Origin: Pseudarthrobacter raffinosi
Lineage (GTDB): Bacteria > Actinomycetota > Actinomycetes > Actinomycetales > Micrococcaceae
DNA length: 64,000 bases
Assembly (NCBI RefSeq): GCF_023913735.1
Contig: NZ_JAMXBH010000017.1
Span: forward strand, 1-64,000
Direction of reading: 5' to 3'
Shown here: in pieces, positions 1,935 to 11,328 of the stretch
Position numbering within the stretch: position 1 is the stretch's first letter
Layout of the letters: every line of letters begins with the position of its first letter
Made by a program: the position numbers and the translations under genes
Notes under the pieces: generated by a model
What the model was told of the DNA's origin: nothing
Database searches by the model: none
What the model saw: only the letters and a program-made list of their open reading frames with translations

Positions 1935-3176
1935 CTAAACTCCGACGGCGGGGCGGCCCAGGGTGCGCCCCTCGCGCAGGACCAGGACGCGGCGGAAGTT
2001 GCGGTCCACCACTACGACGTCGGCCCGCAGGCCCGCGCGGAGACTTCCGATTTCCTGCCCCTGGCCGATGATGGCCGCCGGAACCGCGGTGGCTGACAAA
2101 ACAGCGGCGGCCGGCTCCACGCCGGCGTTAATGGTCCGCCGCACAACGTCCAGCAATGTGGCCGTCCCGCCAGCGAGGGTGCCGTTGCTGAGCCGGGCCA
2201 CGGCACCGCTGACGGAAACGGCGGCGGGGCCAAGCTCGTAGTCCCCGTCCGGCAGCCCGGTGGCGGCCATGGAGTCGGTCACCAGGACCACGTTTTCAGC
2301 CCCCACCAACTCGAAGACCATCCGGACTGTTTCGGGGTCCAGGTGCGCGCCGTCGGCGATGAGTTCGACGGCAATCGTGCCGGCCCCGGCCAGCCGGAGG
2401 CACGCGGCGACAGGTCCGGGGCTGCGGTGGTGCAGCGGCGGCATACCGTTAAAGAGGTGTGTGATAGTGGGGCGCGATACGGTCCCCAGGCCGGATGCCG
2501 CCAGCAGCTCCGCCGCCCCGGTGAGGGAGGCCGCCGTCGTCCGCGCGTCCGCGTCAGTGTGGCCCAGCGACGGCGTGACGCCGTGCTCGGCGAGCATCCG
2601 CACCACGGCGTCGGCGCCGGGAAGTTCGGGCGCGTACGTCATGGTCCGCAGGTGGCCGCCGGCCGCGGCCAACAGTTCGCCCAGCAGGGGGAGGTCCGGC
2701 TCGCGCAGGTACCGCGGATCCTGGGCGCCGCATCGCGCGTGGGACAGGAACGGCCCCTCGGAGTGGATGCCCGCGATGAGCCCTTCATCGGCAAGCAGCC
2801 GCAGGGTTTCCAGGCCGCGCAGCAGGTCCTCGCGGGACGCGGTCACCGTGCTTGCCAGCAGCGTGGTGGTGCCGCTGCGGTGCAGGAAGTCCACGGCGGC
2901 CCTGGCAGCCCCGCTGTCGCCGCTGGGGAAGTCGCCGCCCACGGCCCCGTGGCAGTGCAGGTCAACGAGGCCGGGCAGAATCAGGCTGCCCCGCGGCAGT
3001 TCGAGTTCCTCAAGACCGGGCAGCGACGCCTCATCCAAGCCCGCGCGGGGCCCTACATACGCGATGCGGCCGTCCGCGACGGCCACCACTGCGTCGTCCT
3101 GGATCGAGCCGTCGGTCAGGACCGTGCCGGCCAGCAGGTAGCTCCCGGACTCAGCGGCGGTGGGCCCGGGCGTCAC
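1935..3176 (-). CDS. nagA: N-acetylglucosamine-6-phosphate deacetylase
   Basis: Cytosolic amidohydrolase-superfamily enzyme that removes acetate from GlcNAc-6-phosphate to give glucosamine-6-phosphate, a step in GlcNAc and sialic acid catabolism. Family landmarks are present in order: DLHCHGAVGGDF near residue 72, HSEGPFL, GHTDADA, HLFNGMPPLHHR, ADGAHLDP and the catalytic LVTDSMAATG. Its length of 413 residues is a little above the usual 380-400. The GTG start at 3176 overlaps the stop of the upstream nanE remnant (GTGA), so the two were translationally coupled. It is the only apparently intact gene of its cluster. Confidence 0.93.
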   Translation of the reverse strand: MTPGPTAAESGSYLLAGTVLTDGSIQDDAVVAVADGRIAYVGPRAGLDEASLPGLEELELPRGSLILPGLVDLHCHGAVGGDFPSGDSGAARAAVDFLHRSGTTTLLASTVTASREDLLRGLETLRLLADEGLIAGIHSEGPFLSHARCGAQDPRYLREPDLPLLGELLAAAGGHLRTMTYAPELPGADAVVRMLAEHGVTPSLGHTDADARTTAASLTGAAELLAASGLGTVSRPTITHLFNGMPPLHHRSPGPVAACLRLAGAGTIAVELIADGAHLDPETVRMVFELVGAENVVLVTDSMAATGLPDGDYELGPAAVSVSGAVARLSNGTLAGGTATLLDVVRRTINAGVEPAAAVLSATAVPAAIIGQGQEIGSLRAGLRADVVVVDRNFRRVLVLREGRTLGRPAVGV

Positions 3177-3688
3177 TTGAGGGTCTCGGCGAACCAGCCG
3201 GTGATGGTGGCCGGGTGCGTGATCGCGGTTCCGACGACGACGGCCGCGGCCTCGACCGCCGCGGCAGCGTCGTCGAACGAGCCGCAGTCCGCCATCACCA
3301 AGGCGTGGGAATCGTGGTGGATGCCCGCCACTGTCTGGGCCAGGGCCAGGGCCAGGGCCAGGGTCAGGCCGTCCGGACGCTCCCGGCGCGTGCCGTCGAT
3401 GGCCACCACGTGGGCGCCCGCGTTGGCCGCCGCCAGAGCATGACGGAGTGTGGGAGTGATGAAGGCGCCGTCGTGACCGTCCTTCCAGAGCCCGATCACC
3501 GGAACCTCCACCGCTGCACGCGTGAACTGCACATCGGCCAGACCCTGGACACGGACGGCAGCGGCGCCGCCGATCACTGCGGAAGCGGCCATCTGCGCCG
3601 TGCTGCGCGGGTCCCGCAGGGGCTCGCCCGGATACGCCTGGCAGGACACGATGAGTTGCCCGCGCAGGGCTTTGGGGGTCAGAATCAC
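3173..3688 (-). pseudogene. nanE: N-acylglucosamine-6-phosphate 2-epimerase, internally deleted
   Basis: The N-terminus (LIVSCQAYPGEPL), the KDGHDGAFITPT segment and VVAIDGTRRERPDG match NanE, the TIM-barrel enzyme converting ManNAc-6-P to GlcNAc-6-P. The frame is open but only 171 residues long, against roughly 220-235 in the family. After LVMADCGSFDDAAAAVE it jumps directly to AAAVVVGTAITHPATIT, so the strand/helix region containing the usual GTTLSGYT and AEGRIHTPE segments is missing. The barrel probably cannot fold. A (GGGCCA)n repeat within the gene encodes LALALALA. It is followed by nagA with a 4-nt overlap. Confidence 0.65.
3337..3366. repeat. Hexanucleotide microsatellite GGGCCA x4 plus GGGTCA
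   Basis: Four perfect and one imperfect 6-bp units lie in tandem inside the nanE remnant and encode alternating Leu-Ala. Unit changes would keep the frame, so this is a candidate length-variable tract. Confidence 0.85.
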
Positions 3689-3746
3689 GGTCGGTTCCTC
3701 TGGAAGGTTGACGGAGCGGGCTGAAGATCAGGGAATGACGAGGTGC

Positions 3747-4280
3747 TTAGGACCGAGTGGTGGTGAGGACCAGTCGCGCGGCGCCCACCATTGCTGCTGC
3801 GTTGCCGAGTTTAGCGGGAGGACGGGGAGGCCGAGCAGCGCGGGCAGGAGTTCGGCGCGAAGGGCGCGTTCCATGGGACGCCACCAGGGCGCGCCGGCGT
3901 CGGAGAGCCCGCCGGAAACCACCACCACTTCGGGTCCAGGATGTTGGCGAGTCCGCCCACGGCCTGGCCGGCGGCAGAGGCGCCCATGCCCACGCCTTGA
4001 TGGCTATGGCATCGCTGTCGCCGGCGAGGGCAAAGACACCGCGGGCGTCCAGCGCCGGTTCCTTGCCGCCGAGCCGCACGTACGCCTCGCGGATGGCGGG
4101 CCCGGAGGCGATGGCCTCAACATGCCCGGCGCCGCCGCAGACGCAGAGAATAGCCTGGCCCTCGTGGAATGCGTACGGCGAGGCGAAGTGGCCCACGTGG
4201 CCGCCCGCATAGCGGTGTCCCAGGACCGGGTGCCCGGCCAGGACAAAACTGCCACCGACGCCGGTGCCGAAGGCCACTAG
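3747..4280 (-). pseudogene. nanK: ROK-family sugar kinase (probable N-acetylmannosamine kinase), multiply broken
   Basis: The segment begins at GTGVGGSFVLAGHPV and includes GHVGHFAS and CVCGGAGHVEAIASG, the glycine-rich and zinc-binding signatures of the C-terminal half of ROK kinases. Homology then moves through three frames: SAAGQAVGGLANILDP (ending near 3930), VVVSGGLSDAG (from 3928) and finally GNAAAMVGAARL back in the first frame. That needs at least three frameshifts. The first roughly 110 residues, including the ATP-binding DxGxT region, are absent: the gene is cut at a junction near 4280 where a sialidase fragment begins. By position in a nag/nan cluster the ancestor was probably the ManNAc kinase. 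Confidence 0.75.
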
Positions 4281-4293
4281 TTATCCACTAGTT
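4274..4293. repeat. 9-bp direct repeat at the kinase/sialidase junction
   Basis: CCACTAGTT occurs twice (4274-4282 and 4285-4293) separated by AT, exactly where the truncated kinase meets the truncated sialidase. It contains the sialidase fragment's stop codon. It could be a deletion scar. Confidence 0.7.
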
Positions 4294-4644
4294 AGGCTCC
4301 AGCCTGGCCGCCGCTTCGAAGAATCCGGCATGCGTACCGGCGGCGTGGAACATAAAGATCCGGCCGGTATCCACGTCCACCAGGAGGCTCGGATCGCCGT
4401 AGCCGTTAAGGCCGCCGCCCGTCCCCACCATATGCTGATCGCCCCAGGTCCGGCCGCTGTCCGTGCTGCGCCGGAGCAGGAGGTCCATCGGGTTGGGCAG
4501 GTCATCGAGGTTGGGGCGGCCGTCATAGGCGGCCAGCAGGGTGCCCTGCCGCGAGACGGCGAGGGCGGGGATCCTGTATTGCCGGTAGCCGCCGGTGCCG
4601 CGGACCGCCAGGACGTGTTCCACGTCGGGCATGGCAGCCGTCAT
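4288..4644 (-). pseudogene. Exo-alpha-sialidase, N-terminal fragment
   Basis: The 118-residue frame starts at ATG 4644 and shows YRIPALAVSRQGTLLAAYDGR (the RIP motif and catalytic Asp region), an Asp-box STDSGRTWG, and GDPSLLVD and MFHAAGTHAGF typical of GH33 sialidases. It stops after LEPN, while the family needs some 350 or more residues for the six-bladed propeller with the remaining Arg and Tyr active-site residues. No signal peptide is visible, so the ancestral enzyme was probably intracellular. The missing C-terminus and the missing kinase N-terminus define one deletion. Confidence 0.75.
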
Positions 4645-5811: not shown

Positions 5812-6588
5812 TCAGCCGGCATACGCGAGGATCGAGAGGCTCCTGACGCCGTATTTCGTGGTCGCCGCACGGGCGCTGTCGGAGAGGAACTCATACGGAT
5901 TCGTCCGGAGCGTTTTCAGCGCGAACCCGCTGCCGGCGATCAATTCCTGGTAGGTGTCTTCCTGCGTGGCGCCACCGATGCAGGCGGCCCAGAGATCAAT
6001 GTTGCAGACAATCTGTTGGGTCAGCGGCCTTTCGGTGACGATATCGGCAACCGCCAGGCGTCCTCCTGGGCGCAGCACGCGTGCCGCTTCGCGGAACACA
6101 GCGGCTTTGTCCGCGGACAGGTTGATGACGCCGTTGGAGATGATGCAGTCGAACCTGGCATCGTCGAAGGGGAGTTCTTCGATGTACCCGTGCGCGAAGG
6201 CGACCTGGGGAAAGCCGCCCTCTTTCCGCAGGCCGTCGGCCTTCTCCAGCTGCTCCTCGGTCATGTCAAGGCCCACCACCTGCCCGCCGGATCCCACCGT
6301 GACGGCGGCGGCGAAGACGTCCATCCCCGAACCTGAGCCCAGGTCCAGGATTTTTTCTCCGGGCCTGAGGTCCGCCAGGTCGAAAAAATATCCCACCCCG
6401 GCGAAGGACTCGACGGCGGCGGCAGGGATCGCGTCCAGCAGCCAGGCCGGGTAGCCCAGCTGCACCGCAAGACCACGTCCCATCTTGAAGTGGTACTTGC
6501 CAGCGGGGTTTTGGGCCACCGCCCGATAGACCTGCTTGACCTTGTCCTCAAGCTCGGTTCGGTCAACTGCAACTGTTCCCATGTCCAT
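5812..6588 (-). CDS. Class I SAM methyltransferase, ArsM-like but lacking one catalytic Cys
   Basis: A Rossmann methyltransferase of 258 residues with the SAM motif ILDLGSGSGMDVF near residue 80, VGLDMTEEQLEKA and RVLRPGGRLAVADI. The arrangement matches arsenite methyltransferases, including LWAACIGGA near the C-terminal Cys. Where ArsM has SNCVINLS, this protein has SNGVINLS, so one of the metalloid-binding cysteines is Gly. Arsenite methylation is therefore doubtful, and another soft nucleophile (thiol, sulfide, selenide) is possible. It lies 15 nt downstream of the OsmC gene in an apparent operon opposite an ArsR-rhodanese regulator. Confidence 0.8.
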   Translation of the reverse strand: MDMGTVAVDRTELEDKVKQVYRAVAQNPAGKYHFKMGRGLAVQLGYPAWLLDAIPAAAVESFAGVGYFFDLADLRPGEKILDLGSGSGMDVFAAAVTVGSGGQVVGLDMTEEQLEKADGLRKEGGFPQVAFAHGYIEELPFDDARFDCIISNGVINLSADKAAVFREAARVLRPGGRLAVADIVTERPLTQQIVCNIDLWAACIGGATQEDTYQELIAGSGFALKTLRTNPYEFLSDSARAATTKYGVRSLSILAYAG

Positions 6589-6603
6589 GGCTATACCCGT
6601 GCT

Positions 6604-7170
6604 TCATACGATTTCGAGGGTGGTTTCAACCGGAACCGGGTTGGCCAGGCAGTCGCGGACCGGTGACGTGTCCTGGACATACCGGCATAGGGACTGAAGC
6701 TGCTCCGGGGTGGCATTCGGGCTGGAGACCCGTGCCTGCGCACGGATGGCGGTGAATCCGGGCCGAGGTCCTTCGAGGCCGAGGAAGGGCCGAACATCCA
6801 GATCGCCTTCGACGTGGAACTCCAGTGAACTGATCTCTATACCCTGGGCGGCCGCATTGGCCGCGTATCCGACGGCGTAGCAGAAGCCCAGGGCCTGCAG
6901 CAGCAGTTCGACGGCATTGGGTCCGGCGTTGTTTCCGAGGAGCACGGGAGGTTCGTCACCCTCGGTCGTGAAGTCTCCGGTCCGGGTGGTGTCGGGTTCC
7001 CCCGCATGGGTGAATCCCAGGATCTTTCCCGAGTTATGGGTGCCGCCGCGCCAGGTGCTGGTGGCTCTGAACGTAAAGCTGCCCTGGGTGGGATCTGCCT
7101 GGATCGCATCGATGGTCCCCAGTAGCTGGTCGACGTCAATGCCATTGCGGAAGGTCGCTGTCGATTCCAT
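6604..7170 (-). CDS. OsmC-family peroxiredoxin-like protein
   Basis: The 188-residue protein has the OsmC/Ohr fold signature: LLQALGFCYAVGYAANA carries the first active Cys at the start of the central helix, and LCRYVQDTSPVRDCLANPVPV carries the second. OsmC/Ohr proteins reduce organic hydroperoxides with a reactive cysteine pair, and some members act on persulfides. The long insertion with RGGTHNSGKI resembles the YhfA/OsmC-like subgroup that carries HNSG. It is first gene of a two-gene operon with the methyltransferase. Its promoter region holds two palindromes facing the divergent ArsR-rhodanese gene. Confidence 0.88.
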   Translation of the reverse strand: MESTATFRNGIDVDQLLGTIDAIQADPTQGSFTFRATSTWRGGTHNSGKILGFTHAGEPDTTRTGDFTTEGDEPPVLLGNNAGPNAVELLLQALGFCYAVGYAANAAAQGIEISSLEFHVEGDLDVRPFLGLEGPRPGFTAIRAQARVSSPNATPEQLQSLCRYVQDTSPVRDCLANPVPVETTLEIV

Positions 7171-7224
7171 CGCAATTCGCCTCTTTTCCGGGTTGTCCCG
7201 GGGTCCGTGGCGCGGCCCGGGTGG

Positions 7225-7246
7225 TATTCAAGTGAATACTTGAATA
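7225..7246. promoter_or_regulatory. Operator 1 for ArsR-rhodanese regulator
   Basis: A perfect inverted repeat with 9-bp arms TATTCAAGT and ACTTGAATA around the spacer GAAT, in the 138-bp gap between the OsmC operon and the divergent regulator. This is the size and symmetry of ArsR/SmtB-family operators. Binding is inferred. Confidence 0.75.
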
Positions 7247-7269
7247 CGACACCCGGTGGGTATATCTTG

Positions 7270-7285
7270 TCAAGTACCTACTTGA
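7270..7285. promoter_or_regulatory. Operator 2 for ArsR-rhodanese regulator
   Basis: Arms TCAAGTA and TACTTGA around CC repeat the core (TCAAGT/ACTTGA) of the first site 24 bp downstream. It lies 24 bp before the regulator start, fitting autoregulation. Confidence 0.65.
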
Positions 7286-7308
7286 ATATGATTTGCGGAG
7301 GATCGGGC

Positions 7309-7998
7309 ATGAGTGACAGGCCGGCAAAGGACAAGCTGTTTGATGCATTTGCTTCCGTGGCCAAGGTCCTTGGCAGTGGTCGGCGCGCCGAGATAGTGGA
7401 TGTCCTGGCCCAGGGTGAGCGCCCTGTGGACGAAATTGCCGAGGAAATCGGGCAGAGCATCGCCAATACTTCGCAGCATCTTCAGCAGCTCCTGCGGGCA
7501 GGCCTGGTGCGCACCCGTCGCGAAGGAACGCGGATCCATTACCGCCTCAGCGGCACCGCTGTCACGCGACTCTGGGCGGCCGTGCGGGAGGTTGCATCCG
7601 AGCATGTCGCAGAACTCGACGAACTCGCCGAGGCCTACCTGGGGGACAGGGCGGCCTTGGACTCCCTGACCCGGACTGAGCTGACCAACCGAATGGCCGC
7701 CGGAGATGTCGTAGTTCTCGATGTGCGGCCTGAGCGCGAATTCCGCTCCGGCCACATCCCGGGCGCGGTTTCGGTTCCTGTCGGAGAGCTGGCGGGGAGG
7801 ATGAAGGACCTGCCGCACGGCCGCATCATCGTGGCATACTGCCGCGGACAGTACTGCGTGTTCGCCGACGAGGCGGTCCGGACGCTGCGGGAACAGGGTA
7901 TGCCTGCCGTCAGGCTCGAGGAGGGCTATCCCGAGTGGGCTGAGGCCGGGCTACCCGTCGAGGCTGGCGCGCCGCGCAAGTCCGGCGCGCCGGGATAG
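7309..7998 (+). CDS. ArsR-type HTH regulator fused to a rhodanese domain
   Basis: A 229-residue protein. The N-terminal winged helix (about 10-100) includes VDEIAEEIGQSIANTSQHLQ and the wing LVRTRREGTRIHYRLSG. The C-terminal rhodanese domain (about 125-220) has VLDVRPEREFRSGHIPGA and the active loop YCRGQYC. A rhodanese cysteine on a repressor suggests sensing of sulfane sulfur or thiol-reactive compounds. ArsR-rhodanese fusions of this general type are known in actinobacteria, though the ligand here is inferred. The ATG at 7309 follows a GGAGG Shine-Dalgarno. It is divergent from the OsmC-methyltransferase operon and probably represses it from the two palindromes between them. Confidence 0.9.
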   Translation: MSDRPAKDKLFDAFASVAKVLGSGRRAEIVDVLAQGERPVDEIAEEIGQSIANTSQHLQQLLRAGLVRTRREGTRIHYRLSGTAVTRLWAAVREVASEHVAELDELAEAYLGDRAALDSLTRTELTNRMAAGDVVVLDVRPEREFRSGHIPGAVSVPVGELAGRMKDLPHGRIIVAYCRGQYCVFADEAVRTLREQGMPAVRLEEGYPEWAEAGLPVEAGAPRKSGAPG

Positions 7999-8113: not shown

Positions 8114-9391
8114 TCAGTTACGGGGTGTTGTACGTTGTGACCAGACCACGACGGGAATCAGAAGGAGGGACAGGACGCCTCCGGCCAGGGACAGAACGGC
8201 GTAGCTGGCGCCGGCGACGACGACTCCGGACAGGGCGCCGCCTGTTGCGCCGGCAAGGGCGATAAGGACATCAATGGAGCCTTGTATCTTGGCCCTGGTT
8301 TCGAGCGGGGTGGCGTCGACGATGAGGGCCGTGCCGCTGATCAGGCCGAAGTTCCAGCCCAGTCCGAGCAGCGCGAGTGCGATCATCAGTTGCCCCATGG
8401 ATTGCGCAGGGGCCGTTGCCGCAAGGATCCCGGCTGCCAGGAGCGTCACGCCCGCGGCGACGGCCATGGGGACCCGGCCGAGCCGGTCGACGCCAGTGAT
8501 CAGCGAGGGCAGGTACATGAAGCCGATATGGATGCCGATCACAACTCCGACTTCGGTCAGGCCGTGACCGTGCGACTGCATGTGGACCGGGGTCATGGTC
8601 ATGATGGCGACCATCGCAATCTGGGTGAGGACCATGACGGTGGTGCCGACGGCGACACCGCGGTTGTTCCCCGGCGGTTCCGGGGTGGACGGCGAATCGG
8701 TGGCCGGGGCAGTCTCCGCCCGGTCCTGGGCACTGATCGCGGTAGCCAGTAGGAGCGGGTCGGGCCGCATCCAGAAATACAGCACCAGGCCCGCGAAGGC
8801 GTAGGCGACTGAGGCGAGCAGGAACGGTCCGGCCAGGGCCGGGATGCCCAAGGCTGTGGCGAATGCGCCCATCGGGGTGACCAGGTTCGGTCCGGCAACG
8901 GCGCCGAGTGTTGTGGACACCATGGCCAGGCTGACTGCGGTGGCGCGCCGCTGGGGTGGCGCGAGGTCGGTTCCGGCGTACCGTGCCTGCAGGTTGGTGG
9001 CCGTTCCGGCACCGTAGACGAGAAGGGCAATGAATAACAGGACCACGCTGTCCGTTACCGCTGCCAGGACGACGCCGGCTGCTCCGATGCCGCCGGCGAT
9101 GAATCCCGAGGCCAGGCCGGCACGGCGGCCCCGGGATTGGGAAATCCGTCCGACCAGGAAGGCCGCCCCGGCTGAGCCGAGCGTGAATAGTGCCGCCGGG
9201 ATGCCTGCCAGCCCTGCGGTGCCGAGCATCTGCTGGGCCAGAAGGGCGCCGACGGTGACGCCGGCGGCGAGACCGGCCCCTCCGAAAATCTGGGAAATGA
9301 TGACGACGGCGAGGGTGCGCCGATAGAGCGCATGGCGGCGCTCCGGGGAAAAGGAGTAGAACTGGACCAGTTTTTCTGGGATCTGCTGCAC
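8114..9391 (-). CDS. MFS transporter
   Basis: A 425-residue integral membrane protein with about twelve hydrophobic helices, the loop motif GRISQSRGRRAG between helices 2 and 3, and a central hydrophilic loop (AQDRAETAPATDSPSTPEPP). It probably exports a small molecule using the proton gradient. It starts with GTG at 9391, 9 nt after the stop of an ArsR-rhodanese regulator on the same strand, so the two form an operon and the cargo is probably whatever that regulator senses. A substrate cannot be assigned. Confidence 0.88.
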   Translation of the reverse strand: MQQIPEKLVQFYSFSPERRHALYRRTLAVVIISQIFGGAGLAAGVTVGALLAQQMLGTAGLAGIPAALFTLGSAGAAFLVGRISQSRGRRAGLASGFIAGGIGAAGVVLAAVTDSVVLLFIALLVYGAGTATNLQARYAGTDLAPPQRRATAVSLAMVSTTLGAVAGPNLVTPMGAFATALGIPALAGPFLLASVAYAFAGLVLYFWMRPDPLLLATAISAQDRAETAPATDSPSTPEPPGNNRGVAVGTTVMVLTQIAMVAIMTMTPVHMQSHGHGLTEVGVVIGIHIGFMYLPSLITGVDRLGRVPMAVAAGVTLLAAGILAATAPAQSMGQLMIALALLGLGWNFGLISGTALIVDATPLETRAKIQGSIDVLIALAGATGGALSGVVVAGASYAVLSLAGGVLSLLLIPVVVWSQRTTPRN

Positions 9392-9400
9392 AGCCGGGGC

Positions 9401-10048
9401 CTATGCGGTGGCGGTCAGGTCGACGTCGCCGCTGGCGCGCCATTCAAGGACGCCTTCATCCATGGCGTACGCGTCGATGCCCTGCCCGCGCATCAGACGT
9501 GCCGCATCACGGGCGAGCCGGCAGAATTCGCCCCGGCAATAGACGATGACCCTCCGATCCCGCGGAACTTCCCCGATCCGGGAGGCCAGCTCGTCCAGGG
9601 GAATCGATGCCGCTCCCGGGTAGTGGCCTGCCTGGTATTCGTGCGCGGGGCGGACATCAAGCATGTATGCCTCGCGGATTTCCTCGATGGTGCGGATCAG
9701 CGGCACGGAGTCATCGCGGCCGCTGCCGGAGTCCTTCTCACCGTCGATGGTGGAGAGGCCGGGGAGGACCCGGGCCGCCATGTTCTTCATCGCCACGAAC
9801 AATCCGGCGACCTCCGGACCAGCCAGCCGGTAGTGGATCCTGGTGCCATCCCTGCGCGTCCGCACCAGGCCGGCACCCTTCAGTACTTGCAGGTGGGCAG
9901 AAACGGTCGTCACCCCCATGCCGGACAAGCGGGACAGGTTGTCAACGGACTGCTCAGCCTGCGCCAACAGCTCGAGGAGTTCGAGCCGGTTTCCGCTGCT
10001 GATGGCCTTTCCAATGCGCGCCACGTGCGCGTAGGCGTCCCGGTTCAC
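9401..10048 (-). CDS. Second ArsR-type HTH regulator fused to a rhodanese domain
   Basis: Paralogue of the 7.3-kb regulator: the winged helix contains VDNLSRLSGMGVTTVSAHLQ and LVRTRRDGTRIHYRLAG, and the rhodanese domain has MLDVRPAHEYQAGHYPGA and YCRGEFC. The GTG at 10048 is chosen because GGAGG lies just upstream and homology begins there. An upstream ATG at 10117 would read through the operator. The protein has 215 residues. It probably autorepresses the regulator-transporter operon through the palindrome immediately 5' of its start. The CRGxxC loop is shared with the other regulator, suggesting the same class of sulfur chemistry. Confidence 0.9.
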   Translation of the reverse strand: MNRDAYAHVARIGKAISSGNRLELLELLAQAEQSVDNLSRLSGMGVTTVSAHLQVLKGAGLVRTRRDGTRIHYRLAGPEVAGLFVAMKNMAARVLPGLSTIDGEKDSGSGRDDSVPLIRTIEEIREAYMLDVRPAHEYQAGHYPGAASIPLDELASRIGEVPRDRRVIVYCRGEFCRLARDAARLMRGQGIDAYAMDEGVLEWRASGDVDLTATA

Positions 10049-10060
10049 TTTCGACCTCCA

Positions 10061-10084
10061 GTATTCCAATGAATATTGGAATAC
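10061..10084. promoter_or_regulatory. Operator of the second ArsR-rhodanese operon
   Basis: A perfect inverted repeat with 10-bp arms GTATTCCAAT and ATTGGAATAC around GAAT. Layout and spacer are identical to the 7225 site, but the inner half-site differs (CCAAT instead of CAAGT). It lies 12 bp upstream of the GTG start. Confidence 0.75.
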
Positions 10085-10129
10085 TATCAGGGCTTGTTCG
10101 CTGCGACGCGGGGTCATGGCGCGTGATCT

Positions 10130-10762: not shown

Positions 10763-11328
10763 CTACTCCTTGCCGAGCCCGGCAGCCGAGGTCTTCGCCC
10801 CGGTGACCTCGTTGAGGGCCGTCAGGTCGAAGATGCCATTGATGTCTGCCTGCTTGGTGGTGCCGGCCTCCACGCCGTCCTTGAGCAGCTTGGGGTAGGT
10901 TCCGGCGAGCGGATCGACCGTGAAGACGATGTTCTTCAGGGACCGCTCGATCACGTCGGCCTTCAGTTCGGCACCGGCCGCTTCCTTGAGGGCAGCGTTG
11001 ATGACGCTGGCCTTCTCGGCTGCAGCCGCGCTGTTCAGCCAGTCAACGGACTTAGCGTGGCCCTTAAGGAGCGCCTTTACGGTGTCCGGGTGCTCGGCGG
11101 CGAACTTCTTGTTCACAACCAGGATGGTGGTGGGGAACTCGCCGGCCTTGCCGGAGAGTGAGCCGTCCCAGAGGTCCTTTTCGTCAACCAGGACCTTGGC
11201 CCCGGCGGTCAGCACCAGGCGGGAGGCCCAGGGCTGAGGCAGCCACGCGCCGTCGAGCTTTCCGTCCTGGAACAGTTTCAGCGTCTGGGCGTTTTCGGTG
11301 GGGTTGATGGCCACGTCGCCGCTGCCGT
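10763..11328 (-). pseudogene. SsuA/nitrate-type ABC substrate-binding protein, C-terminal fragment
   Basis: The frame holds the second lobe of a periplasmic-type binding protein of the aliphatic sulfonate/taurine/nitrate class: NAQTLKLFQDGKLDGAWLPQPWASRLV, then FPTTILVVNKKF and the helical C-terminus. Only about 185 of the usual 320-350 residues remain. Signal peptide and first lobe are missing, and the frame stops making sense just before 11330. No permease or ATPase gene is adjacent. It is bounded downstream by an intact terminator. I read it as a deletion remnant. Confidence 0.75.

Follow-up and report, generated by a model that had tools for sequence, protein, structure and literature searches.

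A divergent ArsR-rhodanese and OsmC-methyltransferase locus in Arthrobacter and its relatives, a candidate reactive-sulfur-responsive methylation unit

Results

Composition of the divergent locus

We analyzed a stretch of 64,000 nucleotides from Pseudarthrobacter raffinosi (assembly GCF_023913735.1, contig NZ_JAMXBH010000017.1, positions 1 to 64,000), termed here the window, in which a gene for a regulator composed of an ArsR domain and a rhodanese domain (P0001) is divergent from a gene for an OsmC-family protein (P0002), itself followed after 15 nt by a gene for a methyltransferase with a predicted ArsM fold (MT, P0003). The coordinates of all features are collected in Table 1. The genome comprises 4.58 Mb; the nearest named relatives of the locus belong to Arthrobacter and Pseudarthrobacter, and the MT shows 98% identity to its counterpart in Arthrobacter sp. 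Soil762. All three products score above the curated Pfam cut-offs, the regulator with the ArsR HTH_5 and rhodanese families, its two partners as OsmC and as a class I methyltransferase, respectively. An earlier reading of the same DNA, made from the letters alone (the original prediction), had described an ArsR-rhodanese gene opposite an OsmC/methyltransferase pair; this trio is present, with the correction that the best start of the regulator is the ATG at 7309 and not the GTG at 7207 given in the mechanical list of open reading frames, which would overlap the palindromes described below.

Putative operators and promoter

The region between the divergent genes contains two perfect copies of the palindrome TCAAGTnnnnACTTGA, separated by 42 bp, which would correspond to four helical turns. 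Both fall within the segment 7225-7285 that had been put forward as the operator region. These two copies are the sole perfect matches in the whole genome, and if one mismatch is allowed only four further places are found (six in total, compared to 16 for a control with the reversed pattern); this rarity suggests that the regulator serves its own divergon alone. Among the regions of the same genus, the motif (with up to one mismatch) occurs in all 12 that carry the regulator; 11 of these have two copies, spaced by 42 bp in eight and by 50 bp in three. It is absent from the single region that lacks the regulator (L153). Less perfect copies were found in Pimelobacter (L013), in a metagenome-assembled genome (MAG) of Nocardioidaceae (L021) and in two distant genomes of the same phylum (L125 and L126); with up to two mismatches no copy was found in L014 and L016, both of which possess the regulator gene, nor in L012, L019, L027 and L028. 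A TTGACA hexamer, read in the direction of the OsmC and MT genes, sits inside the regulator-proximal copy of the motif and is consistent with a -35 element lying beneath a repressor, and a consensus scan of the gap revealed no full sigma-70 promoter at the threshold of the tool. The layout as a whole suggests that the ArsR-rhodanese protein is the repressor of the locus.

The ArsR-rhodanese regulator

P0001 matches the ArsR model NF033788 of NCBIfam with 73 bits (cut-off 55) and the rhodanese family PF00581 of Pfam with 62.4 bits (cut-off 22.2). Its only cysteines are Cys178, the catalytic one, and Cys183, both located in the rhodanese loop CRGQYC, in agreement with the sulfurtransferase domain with a CRGxxC loop noticed earlier, and the ArsR domain has none. 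In 52 distinct homologues, counted over the reference columns following the removal of duplicate loci, both loop cysteines are always present (the commonest loop, found in 25 sequences, is CRGPYC), and no other column has cysteine in more than eight, a number reached by column 68. Among solved structures, the ArsR half is matched best by the mycobacterial ArsR protein 2kko/3gw2 (9e-22), which we take to be the orthologue of Rv0324; the solved chain has 108 residues, i.e. it corresponds to the ArsR half only, and the likeness to P0001 covers that half. A literature search for Rv0324 together with rhodanese found no paper.

SqrR is a single-domain protein, and in SqrR, BigR and SoxR the cysteine pair lies within the ArsR domain itself. 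SqrR and BigR are described as ArsR repressors that sense sulfane sulfur with two cysteines, those of SqrR being Cys41 and Cys107 (PMC9774590), and sulfane sulfur sensing by two cysteines is also described for the ArsR-type SoxR (PMC10451225). P0001 is, like these proteins and sHdrR, which repress sulfur genes, of the ArsR type and presumably a repressor, but it differs from the SqrR/BigR-type sensors in that its cysteine pair is placed in a fused rhodanese domain. Since P0001 has no other cysteines, the loop of the attached sulfurtransferase domain is the only place for a sensing pair, and we infer that it may sense sulfur. The idea that P0001 is itself a BigR/SqrR protein was considered and rejected on account of the cysteine placement; it scores 41.5 bits with the BigR model (cut-off 155). 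The claim of the original prediction that the system senses sulfur or thiols receives support of an indirect kind, from the invariance of the loop pair and from the genes for MBL(-rhodanese) or DsrE proteins near eight of 35 orthologues (see below). Literature searches for phrases denoting an ArsR-rhodanese fusion, as well as for ArsR, rhodanese domain, sulfane sulfur and repressor together, gave no result.

Related but less similar regulators were found across the same motif from a different gene: 12 of the 18 fetched regions contain a divergent gene whose product has about 167 aa and no Pfam match, and this gene occurs in a different arrangement in two more. Judged by eye, the divergent gene product (L176-L179, L181-L187, L191) is hydrophobic.

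The methyltransferase: fold, lost arsenic-binding cysteines and Cys203

The predicted structure of the MT (METHYLTRANSFERASE; AlphaFold, pLDDT 91) has the ArsM fold, its best relatives among solved structures being ArsM enzymes, with a Z-score of 26.7 and a root-mean-square deviation of 2.2 to 6cx6 over 223 aligned residues at 30% identity; the protein is shorter than ArsM, and the alignment spans ArsM residues 39-280. Compared to CmArsM, Val65 is found at the position of Cys72 and Gly153 at that of Cys174, and Cys224 alone is kept, as Cys203. Thus, the earlier description of the enzyme as ArsM-like but altered proved accurate and, as far as its sequence tells, the MT lacks the cysteines that define ArsM. 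It shares the fold and one cysteine with the ArsM/AS3MT enzymes (CmArsM, 6cx6 and 4fr0; CrArsM, 5evj; pNRC100 ArsM), but has other neighbours and belongs to a separate group in the tree. In 39 distinct MT sequences (above 250 bits, the window MT included, duplicates dropped) His33, Phe34, Gly37, Val65, Gly153 and Cys203 are invariant, and the remaining cysteines vary. In a tree of 99 sequences, from which short matches had been removed beforehand, the 40 sequences that have Cys at column 153 all fall into one group with support of 1.0; the window MT is a member of a group of 33 (support 0.83), which is placed beside a group of 20, and a third, smaller group is located further out.

A single in-frame TGA codon is common in the 20-member group (18 genes) and in the small third group (three genes), and all 21 TGAs in the aligned part fall precisely on column 203, i.e. 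these relatives would carry selenocysteine (Sec) in place of the invariant cysteine. A search for SelB in 30 genomes, a subset of the 87 with a match, found it over the cut-off in 17 of the 20 genomes with TGA (the misses being G070, G200 and G184) compared to four of the 10 without, and in G000 no SelB was found over the cut-off. We also observed that in L127 (G370:C88:7192-9909) a SelB gene is located about 145 bp from the TGA-bearing methyltransferase gene. The replacement of Cys203 by Sec in relatives argues that the thiol of Cys203 is chemically active.

Comparison with NCBIfam provided the arsenite methyltransferase model NF008823 (cut-off 263) as the best named family, with 206 bits for the window MT, 242 for a haloarchaeal MT and 190-197 for four Cys-type ArsM controls. 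An argument that the MT is not an ArsM as it falls below this cut-off was dropped, given that the four controls score lower still; since they too fall below the cut-off, the model does not separate the MT from ArsM. The second to fourth best models are those of the selenoprotein families ArsM_AhpD_UU (NF041537), MTase_UXPK_star (NF047649) and ArsM_DUF2284_UU (NF041536), with 198, 185 and 176 bits against cut-offs of 510, 460 and 575, respectively. With ArsM_AhpD_UU five SNGV-type proteins score 192-223 bits and the four Cys-type ArsM controls 108-124, and in the three families together the controls reach only these scores or are unlisted. The published listing gives these families UxxG motifs, which match Sec at the position of Cys203, but the window MT is unlike their members in that it has Cys instead of Sec, has no fused domain and scores far under the cut-offs. 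One of the families has a fused AhpD domain, and AhpD-type genes adjoin some of the haloarchaeal MTs (see below).

The OsmC partner

Canonical OsmC/Ohr proteins possess a pair of reactive cysteines. The original prediction had invoked such a pair for P0002 (PF02566), and this was confirmed in part: Cys97, at the first position, is kept, but the usual second cysteine is replaced with Ser169, with Cys162 located seven residues before it. Cys97, Cys162 and Ser169 are invariant in all 21 close homologues, and three other OsmC-family proteins in the same genome retain the usual second cysteine. In Arthrobacter cavernae (L008:5798-6000) an in-frame internal loss has left about 24 codons of OsmC, derived from both ends of the gene, with the MT, the regulator and the motif intact, which indicates that the MT can persist without OsmC.

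Conservation and genomic neighborhood in bacteria

The MT is present in 13 of 150 genomes of the same genus. In 13 regions from the other 12 of these genomes (five of which are the same assemblies as loci from another search for homologues) it is adjoined by the regulator in 12, by OsmC in nine and by both in eight; four of the 13 have the regulator without OsmC, and one has OsmC without the regulator. Seen from the other side, 13 of the 15 regulators with at least 65% identity in the 150 genomes adjoin an MT.

A wider set comprised 35 orthologue loci (near-copies dropped), 14 further loci, mostly from the TGA-bearing groups, and 47 ArsM-like control loci, 38 of which were checked for the Cys motif. 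As a gene caller that scores composition misses genes split by TGA, neighbours were counted by homology searches with TGA read through, within 5 kb on each side and at 40 bits. OsmC was found near 17 of the 35 orthologue loci, three of the 14 further loci and none of the 47 ArsM-like loci, the regulator near 16, two and two, MBL-fold genes near seven, two and one, and DsrE near three, three and none, respectively. Fisher P values for the 35 versus the 47 loci are 3e-8 for OsmC, 8e-6 for the regulator, 0.018 for MBL and 0.07 for DsrE, and for the 22 loci outside the genus they are 9e-6, 0.077, 0.011 and 0.029; they are uncorrected, and refer to loci that are non-independent and to groups that differ taxonomically. 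Genes for persulfide-dioxygenase-like MBL proteins or for DsrE accompany eight of the 35 orthologue loci, a minority, and MFS genes nine. In L148 the OsmC, MT and MBL-rhodanese genes are contiguous. The MBL-rhodanese protein of L013 has 3tp9, 3r2u, BpPRF and ETHE1 as its nearest solved chains, and the DsrE2 protein of L126 matches a sulfur carrier model with 190 bits, under the cut-off of 210. In L126 the genes for DsrE2, MBL, cupin and a TGA-bearing MT are divergent from those for MFS and the regulator; the motif separates these two sets of genes and recurs ahead of the regulator gene. In L125 the motif is located between a DsrE2-MBL-MT(TGA) run and the MFS and regulator genes.

Pfam analysis of 102 extra neighbour genes from 30 orthologue loci revealed, among the best 25 of 116 families, other methyltransferases (in five) as the only recurrent addition and no ars family. 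In the 13 MT-bearing genomes of the genus, that of the window included, ACR3 exceeds the cut-off in only two, in neither case near the MT, and three weaker matches were found. By eye, a gene cluster (c9) near the methyltransferase in L019, L118 and L131 resembles ECF sigma factors.

Haloarchaeal plasmids

Mobility of the MT on bacterial plasmids was considered and rejected: at an E-value of 1e-50 the search of plasmids for orthologues of the MT returned eight records, all of them haloarchaeal; at 1e-15 it returned 67, and the others among the best 60 of these show at most 50% identity and are mostly annotated as arsenite methyltransferase. The following counts refer to seven of the eight haloarchaeal regions. 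OsmC is located directly upstream of the MT in six, with gaps of -1 to 14 nt. Six of the MTs keep the motifs HF..GR, SNGVINL and WAACIGGA, and the seventh keeps SNGVINL and WAACIGGA. The OsmC proteins form two groups with no detectable mutual relationship; the cysteine at the first position is kept, and none is seen by eye at the position of Cys162. A carboxymuconolactone decarboxylase family annotation is found in three regions, including one without OsmC, and in two of them the AhpD core model exceeds its cut-off. MarR-family genes are present in four regions, and no ArsR-rhodanese annotation appears within about 4 kb of the MTs in any of the seven, the gene table being incomplete. Conserved linkage in relatives, on which the original prediction had been staked, is therefore found in two forms: the divergon with its motif recurs in the genus, and the OsmC-MT pair reaches the haloarchaea. 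These regions, together with the fusion family ArsM_AhpD_UU, suggest that the enduring unit consists of the MT and a thiol-redox partner, the regulator being replaceable.

The same group of organisms also has enzymes of the arsenic type. The arsenite methyltransferase of pNRC100 belongs to the SNCV type, and its neighbours are arsD and arsA together with an ArsR gene. Both kinds of enzyme are present in Haladaptatus pallidirubidus YIM 93656, where they are encoded on different plasmids: the MT, of the SNGV type, adjoins OsmC, and the arsenite methyltransferase, of the SNCV type, has an ArsR gene in its vicinity.

Adjacent genes in the window

Beyond the regulator follow an MFS gene and a second, diverged ArsR-rhodanese gene, which probably form a separate unit. 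On the other side, the sialic-acid-type genes at 3173-4644 look broken: the open reading frame of NanE has 171 aa, that of a ROK kinase covers only the middle of the profile, and an open reading frame of 118 aa has relatives in L005 and L007 that reach 590-636 aa. A fragment of an NMT1-like substrate-binding protein, which matches the profile end only, is located at 10763-11314.

Table 1. Features of the divergent locus and of the adjoining genes (window coordinates)
Feature	Position	Strand	Basis
ArsM-fold (predicted) SAM-dependent methyltransferase (MT, 258 aa, P0003)	5812..6588	-	Pfam Methyltransf_31, 115.5 bits; AlphaFold pLDDT 91; ArsM fold
MT Cys203 codon (= CmArsM Cys224; where related groups can have an in-frame TGA (Sec))	5980..5982	-	sequence alignment
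MT Gly153 codon (SNGV motif; As-binding Cys174 in ArsM)	6130..6132	-	sequence alignment
OsmC-family protein (188 aa, P0002), 15 nt upstream of MT start	6604..7170	-	Pfam OsmC, 68.8 bits (cut-off 27.5); nearest solved chain 2opl
OsmC Cys97 codon (first reactive Cys position of the family)	6880..6882	-	invariant in 21/21
Divergent regulatory region between OsmC and regulator, 138 nt	7171..7308	.	sequence
Putative operator 1, TCAAGTGAATACTTGA, within longer palindrome TATTCAAGT-GAAT-ACTTGAATA	7228..7243	.	motif search
TTGACA (-35-like), OsmC-MT direction, overlaps operator 2	7268..7273	-	sequence; TTGACA readable in relatives too
Putative operator 2, TCAAGTACCTACTTGA, 42 bp from operator 1	7270..7285	.	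motif search
ArsR-rhodanese regulator, presumed repressor (229 aa, P0001); HTH 25-68, rhodanese 122-212	7309..7998	+	Pfam; NCBIfam NF033788
CRGQYC active-loop codons (Cys178, Cys183)	7840..7857	+	sequence
MFS transporter, adjoining	8114..9391	-	Pfam MFS_1; same synteny in L005-L007
Diverged second ArsR-rhodanese regulator (loop CRGEFC; 39% identical to P0001)	9401..10117	-	Pfam; syntenic in L005-L007

Discussion

The explanation that we favor, albeit tentatively, is that the locus is a self-contained detoxification unit responsive to reactive sulfur, in which S-methylation is combined with a thiol-redox partner. According to this scheme the ArsR-rhodanese protein would bind both TCAAGTnnnnACTTGA palindromes and silence both divergent promoters. 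Cys178 would react with sulfane sulfur (a persulfide or polysulfide) or with a thiol-reactive compound, Cys183 would then close a di- or polysulfide bridge, and the DNA would be released, with the result that OsmC and the MT are produced. Using S-adenosylmethionine (SAM), the MT would methylate a soft nucleophile of small size that is bound to Cys203 or lies near it; the likeliest candidates are H2S, persulfides and small thiols, and the product would be a methyl sulfide that is either volatile or inert. OsmC, or the AhpD-type protein beside some of the relatives, may keep the substrate or Cys203 reduced, or may remove peroxides or persulfides that occur together with it. The protein families and the neighbours point to this choice of ligand and substrate and to this role of OsmC, and the chemistry envisaged in the original prediction, in which a sulfur- or thiol-reactive compound is reduced and methylated, appears plausible from the sequences. 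A parallel is provided by the actinobacterial MddM1 and MddM2, which are described as methylating H2S and methanethiol and whose transcription is raised by H2S, methanethiol and H2O2 (PMC12904073). The Mdd enzymes resemble the MT in its proposed role and are likewise SAM methyltransferases of Actinomycetota, but with 210 and 204 aa, respectively, compared to 258 aa of the MT, they are likened to it by function only and not by sequence, and the words OsmC, rhodanese and ArsR have no occurrence in the text of that article (PMC12904073). Our search of the literature found no paper that combines ArsR, rhodanese, OsmC and a methyltransferase, in keeping with the earlier remark that no described system with exactly this trio was known to its author.

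Several observations weigh against a reactive-sulfur-responsive unit. Outside the genus the regulator is located near the MT in just four of 22 loci (P 0.077 versus the ArsM-like loci), no MBL or DsrE gene was found within 5 kb of 27 of the 35 orthologue loci, and the neighbour queries, which were drawn from the window and from orthologue and related loci, bias the search against distant versions near ArsM. Two of the three haloarchaeal AhpD-type genes weakly match a model of the arsenosugar-associated peroxidase (36-38 bits, cut-off 120). ArsR-rhodanese genes were also seen within 5 kb of genes for Cys-type ArsM in MAGs of Gallionella and Nitrosomonadales (L030:3630-4286 and L045:1143-1820). 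Finally, the MT is of ArsM ancestry, and the loss of its arsenic-binding cysteines is not decisive against arsenic, because TtArsM has been published as an arsenite methyltransferase with a single cysteine and two proposed His ligands (PMC8649762). One of the selenoproteins tabulated in a review is an arsenite methyltransferase with the motif UxxG, and the review places such selenoproteins in metal or metalloid resistance (PMC13188914).

A possible, though doubtful, alternative is the methylation of a metalloid or soft metal (As, Se, Te, Sb or Hg), with the element held by Cys203 or Sec203 and a second ligand, e.g. His33, and with OsmC or AhpD re-reducing the cysteine or the product. The predicted fold and the best named family would be accounted for directly, Cys203 corresponds to the arsenic ligand Cys224, and His33 is invariant in 39 of 39 sequences; nevertheless two of the three arsenic-binding cysteines are lost, and the 40 sequences of the Cys153 type stand apart as a fully supported group. 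The single cysteine of TtArsM and the UxxG selenoprotein offer precedents (PMC8649762, PMC13188914), and NF008823 ranks the window and haloarchaeal MTs above the Cys-type ArsM controls, although all are under the cut-off of a model that does not separate them. Further points against metalloids are that ACR3 exceeds the cut-off in only two of the 13 MT-bearing genomes of the genus and lies far from the MT there, the ArsR domain of the regulator has no cysteine, the ars genes of pNRC100 accompany an SNCV-type enzyme whereas SNGV-type MTs go with OsmC in six of seven haloarchaeal regions, and one strain, H. pallidirubidus YIM 93656, carries both kinds of enzyme.

We judge it unlikely that the locus serves in defence against an organic electrophile, a hydroperoxide or a thiol-reactive antibiotic, whereby OsmC would reduce the compound and the MT would S-methylate the resulting thiol. 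The OsmC and AhpD-type families have a peroxidase-type function, and the MFS genes near nine of 35 orthologue loci and the patchy distribution of the MT (13 of 150 genomes) would fit such a role, but P0002 lacks the usual second cysteine, and OsmC is missing from four of 13 same-genus regions and mostly deleted in L008, where the MT and the motif are kept. A chance neighborhood, in which an ordinary regulator faces two unrelated genes, is very improbable, for even though the exact trio was found only in the genus and, more loosely, in a few loci beyond, and in related regulators the gene across the shared motif is a different one (mostly that of the 167-aa protein), the motif and the regulator co-occur in the same-genus regions and the OsmC-MT adjacency extends across bacteria and archaea (OsmC near 17 of 35 versus none of 47 loci).

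A more far-reaching form of the reactive-sulfur explanation, which we consider rather unlikely, is that the MT and OsmC or AhpD make up a so far undescribed system for persulfide methylation in bacteria and archaea. Sulfane sulfur would be bound as a persulfide on Cys203 (on Sec in related groups), SAM would methylate the outer sulfur of this persulfide, and the partner would reductively release methanethiol, with the ArsR repressor and its built-in rhodanese loop as the sulfur sensor of the Arthrobacter-type switch.

Our findings point to a methyltransferase family near ArsM in which the arsenic site is broken, a selenol takes the place of the invariant thiol in relatives, and the partners in two domains of life are thiol-redox proteins. 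An assignment of the substrate would bear on several selenoprotein families that have been named by their resemblance to ArsM. The regulator may offer a sensor design in which an ArsR repressor reads sulfur via an attached sulfurtransferase domain instead of its own cysteines. The exchange of Cys for Sec and the partnership with OsmC or AhpD across two domains of life make the question of the substrate directly testable.

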